Below, in pieces: positions 1,900 to 13,989 of a stretch of DNA of 24,691 bases; position 1 is the first letter of the stretch; each line of letters opens with the position of its first letter. Under the pieces are notes generated by a model, which ran no database searches, was not told where the DNA came from, and worked only from the letters and a program-made list of their open reading frames with translations. The stretch comes from a virus: the IMG/VR virus record IMGVR_UViG_3300044716_000418, positions 1-24,691 of that record, one strand, 5' to 3'. Both the position numbers and the translations under genes were made by a program.

Positions 1900-2696
1900 C
1901 ACGCCGGAACCTCTGAAAGGTGGAGCCCAGAAGTCGGAATTGCACCGCTCTCTGCTTCTTGGAAAGAAGCCGCATCGCTGTCTATGCTTTCGGGGCGTGA
2001 ACCTAGATACATTCTAGCGCCTGCTTCGTCAATAGCGCTGAATGGAAGTGTGGGAACCGCTAGGCGTGTCGCAGCCTCGGGGTCGATGAAGTAAATGTAG
2101 CGGAGCTGGAATCCCGGGACTACTTCTGCGCCGGCAGCGCGGCAGTAAGCCTTCCAATCGTACTTGCCGCCGGTTACGTCGTAGAACGTGCGGCCGCCTA
2201 ATTCTGGTCTAGGCGATAGAGGGTTCGATTGTAGGGTCATCGAGTGAATCACTACACCGTTGGGAAGTTTTGCTAGCTCGGCGTTTGGCTTGATTGCGGT
2301 TAGCTTGAAACCGCTTGCGCGATAGATAGTGCCATCTCCGCATTGTGCCCCATCGGCGAACGAGATAACCCATTGGACCGTTGGCGCGTGCTTCTTGAGT
2401 AGCTTCATCGCGATAGCAATCGCGCGAGATTCGGAATTCTTTGGGAGGGCATCGGAGAACGCCATCCGGTTAAGTTCGAGAAACCCGTTCCATGGGGTCT
2501 CTTTGACTAGCCCCTGAATTTTGCGCTTGTCGAGCGATGGGCCAAATTGTAAAGCGCCCTCTAGTTTTCCGGAATAATAAACGCCCATGTGAATCTGGGA
2601 GTTCATGACTACCTTGCCGGAGTAGTGGATGCGCTTAATAACGGCGTTAGCTTCCTGCGCCGAGATTGGCTTGATAATTAGGTCCTTGGCGCTCAT
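1899..2696 (-). CDS. Mom-like DNA adenine modification protein
   Basis: 265-aa protein of the Mom family. Phage Mu Mom, a GNAT-fold enzyme, hypermodifies adenines in DNA and protects it from restriction. Signature blocks seen are HYSG (24-27), SQIHMGVY (33-40), ALQFGPSLDKRKI (48-60), FLELNRMAF (72-80), NSESRAIAIAMKLL (87-100) and SFADGAQCGDGTIYRASGF (112-130). The C-terminal 60 residues look poorly conserved. The start is the ATG whose ATGA overlaps the ParB-like stop, indicating translational coupling. The ParB-like neighbour and the terminase context suggest DNA is modified before or during packaging (inference). Mu Com, the translational activator of mom, has no clear counterpart here. Confidence 0.87.
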   Translation of the reverse strand: MSAKDLIIKPISAQEANAVIKRIHYSGKVVMNSQIHMGVYYSGKLEGALQFGPSLDKRKIQGLVKETPWNGFLELNRMAFSDALPKNSESRAIAIAMKLLKKHAPTVQWVISFADGAQCGDGTIYRASGFKLTAIKPNAELAKLPNGVVIHSMTLQSNPLSPRPELGGRTFYDVTGGKYDWKAYCRAAGAEVVPGFQLRYIYFIDPEAATRLAVPTLPFSAIDEAGARMYLGSRPESIDSDAASFQEAESGAIPTSGLHLSEVPA

Positions 2697-3307
2697 ACCT
2701 GCGTCCCAAGAAAGAGTTCGCAAATTCGAGCGATGGCATTGCCGTTGTTGTTCGGGTTGCCGGTATCTCCAAAATCACCTAGAGCCTTAGCGGCCCTGAT
2801 AGCTTCCTTGACCGTTTCTACTTGGTCGTCATGGAAGGTGAAAGACATCTGCTGAATCGGCTCGCGGTCCCGGCTAGCGGCTTGGAAGGCATCGGCCCAA
2901 TCCTCGCCCGCGGGCAGGGATAGCGGCTCGAATCCGATGGCCTGAATCTCGAAGCCGGCTTCATCCAATTCGGAGAGAGTAGCGGCTAGCATGTCCGGGT
3001 CCCAATCGGCCAATTCTGCCGTTCGGTTATCCGCGAGCGCGAAGGCTTTAGCCTCGGCCTCGGCCCATTCATCCGGAACGCGGGTGATGCTGATTTCACG
3101 CCATCCGATAGATTTGGCCGCAACCATCGTTCCGTTGCCGGCGATGATTGTGTTCTGCCAAACGACCAACGGGCGGCGTTGGCCAAACTTCTCCAACGAT
3201 GAAGCGATGGCCTCAAGGTTTTTAGTTGGATGGCGGCGAGCGTTGTTTGGGTCGAGGGTAAGGGAATCTATGTCGACGGTTTCAACGGAAAGATTTTGAG
3301 CGGTCAT
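2693..3307 (-). CDS. ParB/Srx-fold nuclease-like protein
   Basis: 204-aa protein with an N-terminal ParB-like domain: DPNNARRHPTKNLEAIASSL (about 19-38), FGQRRPLVVW (41-50), the nucleotide-binding loop TIIAGNGTMVAAK (53-65), then VP and AEAKAFALADNRTAELADWD (about 84-103). Phage proteins of this kind are often fused to, or sit beside, DNA methyltransferases and other modification enzymes. Here the partner is the Mom-like gene, coupled by an ATGA overlap. The C-terminal half (about 110-204) is acidic and not recognised. An AGGA lies about 8 nt before the ATG. Whether it cuts DNA, hydrolyses nucleotide or only guides Mom cannot be read from sequence. Confidence 0.85.
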   Translation of the reverse strand: MTAQNLSVETVDIDSLTLDPNNARRHPTKNLEAIASSLEKFGQRRPLVVWQNTIIAGNGTMVAAKSIGWREISITRVPDEWAEAEAKAFALADNRTAELADWDPDMLAATLSELDEAGFEIQAIGFEPLSLPAGEDWADAFQAASRDREPIQQMSFTFHDDQVETVKEAIRAAKALGDFGDTGNPNNNGNAIARICELFLGTQV

Positions 3308-3313
3308 GCGGTC

Positions 3314-3832
3314 CTAACGTGTGGCGTTGAGGCGCTCCATGCGGCGGGCCTCTAGTTCATCCAAGGGGTCATACTCCCGGACCTCGCCAACGCCTAGGCG
3401 CGCGCGGTCTGCGGGTGAGAATCCAAGCGATGAAAGCCAAGACGTAATTTGCGTCCTTAACTCCCTTAGCTGGGAAACGTATGGGTGGGTCACGAAGGAC
3501 CCGTTTGGAAGTCTGTAGTAGCGAGGCACCTCGCCGATAGATAACGCTCGGCGCATCGATTCCGCTTCGTCTACGGTTTGGCAGAGCATCTTGATAACCG
3601 CGGCATCCGAATTCGGTGATAGCCAAAGGCGGCCGGCGGTCCAGATTTGCTCCCACAATTCCGCTCCATCGATTCCAAGGGTCGGAGGCGATGGGATGTC
3701 CTTTGCTGATAGCAAGCCCTCTCCGGGCAGCGGGGCATCGGGTAAAGATTTGTGCGACGGATTGCCGTTGAGGCGATGCTGCTCCGTCGGTTTCGGTGGC
3801 CGGCCATTCGGGCGGCCCGTGGGCGTGGCCAT
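3314..3832 (-). CDS. terS: Phage terminase small subunit, P27 family
   Basis: 172-aa small terminase, the DNA-recognition subunit of the packaging motor. Family features are the basic proline-rich N-terminus GRPNGRPPKPTEQHRLNGNP (6-25), the LWEQIWTAGRLWLSPNSD block (about 59-76), HPYVSQLRELRTQITSWLSSLG (about 116-137) and the ending SPADRARLGVGEV. AGGAGG sits 4 nt before the ATG. The gene follows a 212-bp non-coding region with phased repeats that could be its binding site. Five genes and domains of the usual actinophage order HNH, TerS, TerL are present, but here ParB, Mom and an HTH gene are inserted between the two terminase subunits. Confidence 0.87.
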   Translation of the reverse strand: MATPTGRPNGRPPKPTEQHRLNGNPSHKSLPDAPLPGEGLLSAKDIPSPPTLGIDGAELWEQIWTAGRLWLSPNSDAAVIKMLCQTVDEAESMRRALSIGEVPRYYRLPNGSFVTHPYVSQLRELRTQITSWLSSLGFSPADRARLGVGEVREYDPLDELEARRMERLNATR

Positions 3833-10070: not shown

Positions 10071-10940
10071 TCAATTTTGGCATGTGCGGCATACAGCAGC
10101 GATTCTATCGTGTTCGCATCGCTTGGGTGGATTTGCGGCGGCGCGTTCCTCCGCTAGCCGGGTCTCCTCCAAGATTCGGATTGTCTGCTCTCGCGAGCGC
10201 TCCGATTGCGCGACGCTAATTTGTCGCCGGCGCTCGGCCGCCTCCTCGGGCGTAAGGCTTCGCTCCGGTAGCGGTTCGTCTAGCCATCGTTCCTGATTGA
10301 GCCATGTGGCCGGCCATGGAATAAATTCGGGCTCGGGTAGATTCGGGTCGTTCGCGTACCGATTCGCCGCCTCGATGATTACCTCGGCCGATGCTTTTTT
10401 GAGAGCGCCTTTGAAAGCTAACCGGGCTTTTCCGACCGCTTGCTTGCGAGGGTAGAGATTGTAAAATTCTGTGAAATTCGCCTCAAGGTTTCTTTTTTGG
10501 TTCTTGACTGGTTCTAAGTCTGGTTTGGATGACGTGGGTGTCGCCCCCCCCATGACGCCCGTGTCATCCCCCCATGACGCTAGTGTCATCCCCCCCGCGA
10601 CGCCCGCGTCGCCCCCTCGGAGCCTTCGATGATTGATTGAGCCGTCACATTCGGCCGGGCATTTGAGGAGCACCTGATAGAGGTTTGGGCGGCCGTTGGC
10701 TTGGTCACCATAGCTTCCACCGGCCCCTAGTTGGCAACTAATCTCCCCGGCCGCTTCCAGCTCGCGTAGGGCCCGCTGAACGCTTCTAGGTGTTACACCC
10801 CCGGCGTATTTGGCGAGCGTAGCCACCGCCGGCCATGCGCCGCCGTCGCCTTGGTGATTGGCTATTCCAAGGAGGACCAATTTTGCCGTCCCCTGCGCCT
10901 TTGAATGATGGAGGGCAACCGAAATCGCTTCAATACTCAA
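10071..10940 (-). CDS. O-like replication initiator with internal iterons
   Basis: 289-aa protein. Residues 1-75 form a winged HTH of the phage replication type (TAKLVLLGIANHQGDGG, WPAVATLAKYAG, VTPRSVQRALRELEAAGEI). A Gly-rich linker (about 105-140) is encoded by a four-unit DNA repeat. The C-terminal domain, FTEFYNLYPRKQAVGKARLA then IPWPATWLNQERWLDE (about 155-220), is found in many phage replication proteins, followed by a basic coiled tail and a CEHDRIAAVCRTC cysteine ending. Likely binds its own gene as origin, as lambda O does, and recruits host helicase. Starts at TTG with AAAGG 7 nt upstream. Confidence 0.78.
   Translation of the reverse strand: MSIEAISVALHHSKAQGTAKLVLLGIANHQGDGGAWPAVATLAKYAGGVTPRSVQRALRELEAAGEISCQLGAGGSYGDQANGRPNLYQVLLKCPAECDGSINHRRLRGGDAGVAGGMTLASWGDDTGVMGGATPTSSKPDLEPVKNQKRNLEANFTEFYNLYPRKQAVGKARLAFKGALKKASAEVIIEAANRYANDPNLPEPEFIPWPATWLNQERWLDEPLPERSLTPEEAAERRRQISVAQSERSREQTIRILEETRLAEERAAANPPKRCEHDRIAAVCRTCQN
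10455..10528. other. AT-rich stretch next to the iterons (candidate unwinding region)
   Basis: This part of the initiator gene is visibly richer in A/T than its surroundings, with T/A runs such as TTTCTTTTTTGG at 10488-10499. It borders the iterons on the side toward the gene's 3' end, as the AT-rich unwinding element does in the lambda O gene. Confidence 0.45.
10529..10612. repeat. Four 16-bp palindromic iterons (candidate replication origin)
   Basis: Units ATGACGTGGGTGTCGC (10529-10544), ATGACGCCCGTGTCAT (10552-10567), ATGACGCTAGTGTCAT (10574-10589) and GCGACGCCCGCGTCGC (10597-10612). Each is a 7-2-7 inverted repeat (unit 4 perfect), separated by C tracts of 6-7 bases. Starts are 23, 22 and 23 bp apart, so successive units lie in different codon phases and encode different peptides. 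Confidence 0.7.
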
Positions 10941-13698: not shown

Positions 13699-13989
13699 AT
13701 GGAGGAGAAAGTATTTGCCAGCAACGGCGAGCAACTGAAAGATTGGCTCCAATTTCAGGATGAAATCTTTACAGCGCCGACGCAGACACCATGCGTTAGT
13801 TATCCGGAAGCGTACTTTGACGATGAGCCGGGGTTGCGCAATCTAGCCCGGGCCGGATGCGAATCCTGCCCCGTTCAGCTCCAATGCCTTCGGTACGCGT
13901 TGAAATGGGAACCATACGGGATGTGGGGCGGGTTGAGTGCCGCCGAGCGCAAGGCAATCCTAAAGGCGCGGCAATCCCGAGCATCCTAA
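13699..13989 (+). CDS. WhiB-family iron-sulfur transcriptional regulator
   Basis: 96-aa WhiB-like protein, the only plus-strand gene. Cys32, Cys54, Cys57 and Cys63 give the C-x21-CxxC-x5-C arrangement that holds a 4Fe-4S cluster, and GMWGGLSAAER (74-84) is the G-[VIM]-W-G-G turn and following helix. The C-terminus is short and basic (KARQSR). Such proteins exist only in actinobacteria and their phages and commonly bind region 4 of the sigma factor; phage TM4 WhiB is a repressor of a host whiB gene. AAGGG precedes the ATG. The stop TAA overlaps the convergent sigma-like stop. Confidence 0.9.
   Translation: MEEKVFASNGEQLKDWLQFQDEIFTAPTQTPCVSYPEAYFDDEPGLRNLARAGCESCPVQLQCLRYALKWEPYGMWGGLSAAERKAILKARQSRAS

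Follow-up and report, generated by a model that had tools for sequence, protein, structure and literature searches.

A candidate replication origin of the lambda plan, followed by a widely shared second repeat, within the gene of an HTH_36 phage initiator

The window, that is, the whole 24,691-nt stretch of viral DNA analyzed here (IMG/VR record IMGVR_UViG_3300044716_000418, positions 1 to 24,691), carries a minus-strand replication initiator gene at positions 10071-10940. Four repeat units (iterons), read directly from the sequence, occupy positions 10529-10612 inside this gene, and they are followed on its 3′ side by an A-rich stretch with a second, shorter repeat. The features, with coordinates in the window, are:

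10071-10940, minus strand: replication initiator gene (289 aa, TTG start)
10597-10612, minus strand: iteron, GCGACGC-GG-GCGTCGC, GCGACGCGGGCGTCGC, perfect arms (7/7 pairs)
10574-10589, minus strand: iteron, ATGACAC-TA-GCGTCAT, ATGACACTAGCGTCAT, 6/7 pairs
10552-10567, minus strand: iteron, ATGACAC-GG-GCGTCAT, ATGACACGGGCGTCAT, 6/7 pairs
10529-10544, minus strand: iteron adjoining the A-rich flank, GCGACAC-CC-ACGTCAT, GCGACACCCACGTCAT, weak palindrome (3/7 pairs)
10544-10551, 10568-10573 and 10590-10596: C-runs between the units, which are G-runs on the gene strand, one beside each unit
10459-10528, minus strand: A-rich 3′ flank, candidate unwinding element, 37% GC over 70 nt
10522-10525, 10510-10513, 10499-10502 and 10487-10490, minus strand: second repeat, AACC, at a spacing of 12, 11 and 12

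The start of the gene product, MSIEAIS, resembles the starts of its homologues, and the protein matched two PHROGs replication initiation families, phrog_270 (5e-33) and the 'O-like' phrog_8540 (9e-28). Its Pfam match was HTH_36 (2e-10), a winged-helix domain at residues 17-65, and a conserved TWLNQERW C-terminal domain was located at about residues 154-222. With both domains present, the protein is an HTH_36 phage initiator (phrog_270 / phrog_8540), and the array is located in the linker between them. In an AlphaFold model built from 31 sequences both domains were confident, and pLDDT values <50 were confined to residues 98-140, the stretch encoded by the array. A PDB sequence search with the protein gave no match, and a PDB fold search with the model gave generic winged-helix matches only (best: MarR and Fur regulators), none of them with E <0.001.

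The neighbouring genes encode RusA, HNH, ERF and YqaJ proteins, an early DNA-metabolism cluster. A WhiB-like regulator is encoded on the plus strand at 13699-13989, amid minus-strand genes, and points to an actinobacterial host. Farther away, a Mom-like DNA modification gene (1899-2723; phrog_1384, 7e-47) overlaps a ParB-like gene (2693-3307; phrog_620, 1e-34), and this pair sits between two different genes (1513-1902 and 3314-3832) that match terminase small subunit families (phrog_4102, 1e-20; phrog_83, 6e-24).

A preliminary description of the locus had proposed four 16-bp imperfect palindromes of the form 7-2-7. This holds for three units (7, 6 and 6 of 7 pairs), but the unit at 10529 pairs at 3 of 7 positions; GAC-N6-GTC is kept in all four. 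The start-to-start spacing of 23, 22 and 23 bp and the joining C tracts agreed with the coordinates. No further copy of the iteron pattern was detected in the 24.7-kb record with up to one mismatch allowed. The claim that each unit is read in a different frame was overstated: the copies lie in frames 0, 2, 0 and 2, only two frames being used because the spacing alternates 23/22/23. The argument for selection on the DNA, which this claim served, stands nonetheless.

The self-match score of the window gene was 23.0, a value reached by 0 of 2000 synonymous-codon shuffles (maximum 19), and local base shuffles attained 13.5 at most (n = 2000). A cruder 12-mer repeat caller, hampered by the G-rich linker, separated the window poorly from its shuffles, 2/40 of which reached the window value; separation was achieved with the self-match score. 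By the same statistic the array of phage lambda scored 13.5, barely above its shuffles (reached in 1/50), so the score can understate real origins.

Homologous loci were collected from viral contigs (80), bacterial genomes (32) and named phages; a second viral scan, with the alignment as query, returned largely the same contigs. For a core set of 37 proteins (<80% identity), the 210 nt preceding the C-terminal domain were compared with 40 synonymous shuffles each. The linker self-repeat was above all 40 shuffles in 35/37 homologues and did not surpass them in the other two. Among the controls, this level was attained by 0/37 N-terminal parts, 2/37 C-terminal parts and 5/150 unrelated long ORFs of the same loci. 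In a wider set of 60 representatives (<70% identity), which includes proteins with other N-terminal domains, 48 passed the comparison.

Spacings of 23 bp (31 times), 22 bp (28 times) and 18 bp (12 times) were recorded in 38 representatives, lambda included, with the copies in shifting frames; the array of L039 was weak in this analysis. A subgroup (L022, L023, L025, L033 and L064) has iteron steps of 18, 18 and 23 bp or of 18, 23 and 23 bp. In every homologue the sites are found some 330-410 nt into the gene, and their sequence varies by phage: GGGGTGAAACCCACTTCACCC in L008, CAGGGTGGAACT in L013 and GACCCCGTGTCA in L019, both recurring every 22 bp, and AACGGGGTGCAA in Pseudomonas phage D14B. 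The repeat words are private to the initiator genes, with 96 matches inside and 2 elsewhere in the fetched loci. Dyad symmetry is absent from many homologous iterons, and their G-runs are only 3-5 long.

Mean pairwise identity was 0.11 for the linker peptide, 0.33 for the HTH and 0.49 for the C-terminal domain. The repeats of 35/37 linkers, the 11% peptide identity and the varied repeat words together indicate that repetition is maintained in the DNA, whereas the linker peptide and the sequence of the repeat both change. This is the outcome that the preliminary description had anticipated from an alignment of homologues, and the case that it had named as contrary, homologues with a conserved linker peptide and no repeats, was not seen. 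The winged-helix domain is the likely reader of the iterons. We infer this role, since co-variation of HTH residues with the repeat sequence was weak and not significant (Mantel test, p 0.11 to 0.16, with a rank correlation of 0.06 at p 0.11 and a noisy automatic iteron consensus).

An AT-rich stretch had also been placed toward the 3′ end of the gene, and the 70 nt found there have a GC content of 37%, the 1.3rd percentile of the window and the 0.3rd percentile of the 8-14 kb region, vs. 57% in the 5′ flank. Within it, AACC recurs at gene positions 415, 427, 438 and 450. AACC[AG] was then counted in the 84 nt that immediately precede the C-terminal domain in the 37 genes and compared with synonymous shuffles: 85 occurrences were observed vs. 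32.6 expected, in 35/37 genes and at least twice in 34/37. All three frames are used (43/23/19), the spacing is mostly 11 to 15 nt, and the longer word AGAACCA is present in 17/37 genes vs. 2.6 expected. An excess over synonymous shuffles that extends to three frames indicates that the AACC element, too, is kept at the DNA level.

Unlike that of the iterons, the sequence of the AACC element recurs from group to group, among them Pseudomonas and Vibrio phages and alphaproteobacterial prophages; this shared element is the less expected part of the finding. By analogy with two known cases, it may serve as an unwinding element or as a single-strand signal: repeats within unwinding elements bind initiators as single strands (PMC10797057), and the AT-rich region of the lambda origin is bound by lambda O in single-stranded form (PMC7466680). 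Homologues that have the same C-terminal domain and another N-terminal domain (L094, L095, L096, L097, L098, L100; L049, L061, L074, L077, L078; L116-L118) have short DNA repeats in tandem immediately 5′ of the codons for the C-terminal domain, with units of 8 bp (GGGGAACA) or 6 bp (GAGACA, CCCATA or GAAAAT). These tandem repeats may stand in for the AACC element.

The window thus combines the components of the lambda plan: an initiator gene, a repeat array in its linker, an adjoining AT-rich element and upkeep at the DNA level. These data suggest that the array is very probably the binding-site half of a phage replication origin, located inside the gene of its own initiator, with an initiator outside Phage_rep_O. 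Each 22-23-bp unit would be bound by the winged-helix domain of the initiator, probably in dimeric form. With about two helical turns from one to the next, the four bound copies would face nearly the same side of the helix, and the DNA would be bent or wrapped by them. Next, the A-rich DNA that adjoins the array on its 3′ side and contains AACC every 11-12 nt would melt; the initiator or a different replication protein would hold the exposed strand, and the replicative helicase would be recruited to the melted site by the conserved C-terminal domain. GC skew had been suggested as a further indicator of the origin. Its sign does change near the array (~10 kb), but in the sense opposite to the usual leading-strand G excess; the record is a fragment, and GC skew was set aside as origin evidence.

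The array could instead be an operator, through which the initiator or a phage repressor controls transcription of the replication operon, with the origin elsewhere. Palindromic sites for a winged-helix protein would also fit a repressor, and the MarR and Fur regulators are the best solved-structure matches of the model, though as generic winged helices. The sites, however, are placed deep within the gene, not at its promoter, in every homologue, they are private to it in this record and in most of the loci, and they are always trailed by the AT-rich flank with its second DNA-level repeat. For these reasons we consider an operator improbable.

An RNA feature, either mRNA hairpins with a regulatory role in translation or termination, or else a G-quadruplex formed by the G-runs, is less probable still. 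The RNA of the window does fold more stably than its shuffles (z -2.84), and the G-runs between its units are long, but stability is not conserved in the arrays of L013, L014, L015 and L019 (z -0.3, 0.4, 0.7 and -1.2), so the folding signal is confined to the window among the arrays tested. The short G-runs and frequent lack of dyad symmetry in the homologues point the same way, spacing being what is kept.

Finally, the repeats might be kept because the protein needs a flexible linker of repetitive sequence, the DNA repeat being a by-product or recent slippage. This reading would suit a low-complexity, G-rich linker whose length varies among homologues, but it deserves almost no weight, since synonymous shuffles of the window gene and of its homologues keep the peptide and lose the repeat, copies 22-23 bp apart encode different peptides in shifting frames, and the linker peptide is barely conserved.

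With the array read as an origin, a broader proposal can be advanced tentatively, as a possibility that we would rate below even chances. HTH_36 initiators might share a two-part intragenic origin code, which would consist of fast-changing, phage-private 22-23-bp iterons read by the winged helix, and then of slow-changing (AG)AACC every 11-15 nt, which phages and prophages of phyla that include Actinobacteria and Proteobacteria have in common. In this scheme AACC would act as a general signal for unwinding or for single strands, recognized either by the conserved C-terminal domain or by a replication protein of the host, in a role comparable to that of the DnaA-trio.

In the literature searched, which comprised few of the subscription journals, neither such arrays, as the preliminary description had supposed for this phage type, nor a two-part code of iterons and shared AACC is described, and no binding or replication data on the HTH_36 initiator family were found. 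The origins of phages with these initiators appear unmapped there, though the initiators are common (179 named phage records and at least 559 candidate stretches in viral contigs). If the array is indeed an origin, the origin can be read from sequence, in the linker of the HTH_36 initiator gene, and many actinobacteriophages would gain predicted origins from which test constructs and plasmid replicons could be made. Fast iteron turnover vs. a stable AACC element offers a natural experiment on the co-evolution of initiator and site inside one gene, in which the linker peptide has to accommodate any demand of the origin DNA.

The comparison with phage lambda, already drawn in the preliminary description, is borne out at the level of the plan: iterons and 3′ A-rich DNA lie inside the initiator gene at a similar relative place. 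The lambda origin has four dyad-symmetric repeats with G/C-runs and a start spacing of 20-24 bp (PMC7466680). These occupy 0.39-0.48 of gene O (0.38-0.47 of the length in the window gene), between the N- and C-terminal parts of the initiator, and the A-rich stretch is 3′ of them. In contrast, the repeat sequence of lambda is unrelated, its AT-rich part is without the AACC element, and no lambda P-like loader was detected among the window proteins tested. Lambda O belongs to Phage_rep_O (PF04492, 6e-36), whereas the HTH_36 protein of the window has no match to this family, and profile comparison of the two proteins returned nothing (hhalign probability 0.4%, E 0.15). Membership of the lambda O family was rejected on these grounds, the sole link being shared matches to broad PHROGs such as phrog_391 and phrog_678. 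Of the earlier wording, an array in the linker of an O-like initiator with an N-terminal winged HTH, the linker, the initiator and the HTH were confirmed, but membership of the lambda O family was not detectable for this protein.

Homologous initiators are encoded by Arthrobacter phages Chickaboom, Abidatro and Decurro, Pseudomonas phage vB_PaeS-D14B and Vibrio phage 219E41.1. Identity to the window protein is 43% over the first 161 residues for Decurro and 37% over 250 for Chickaboom. Four copies at 22-bp spacing are present in Chickaboom and D14B, and other or weaker arrays in Decurro and 219E41.1. AACC-type repeats follow the arrays in these phages, which differ from the window in their repeat sequences. 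Their initiators carry the annotation HTH protein or replication initiation protein, and in the regions inspected no origin feature is annotated.

The nearest actinophage study concerns RepA-type prophage origins of the cluster A mycobacteriophages Miko, Rachaly and Jeeves, for which an initiator gene encoding an N-terminal HTH is enough to sustain plasmid replication; its authors presume cis-acting ori sequences within or beside repA, the sites being unmapped there (PMC7157519). We liken this RepA to the window initiator by description. The same applies to three Firmicute phages, which have other initiators. In SPP1 oriL the direct repeats lie within gene 38, which encodes the protein that binds them, and an AT-rich unwinding element is present as well (PMC6316719). 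In the lactococcal phages TP901-1 and Tuc2009, too, the origin has direct repeats located in the gene for their own binding protein (PMC8965321). As these cases show, the placement of an origin inside an initiator gene is a recurrent arrangement.
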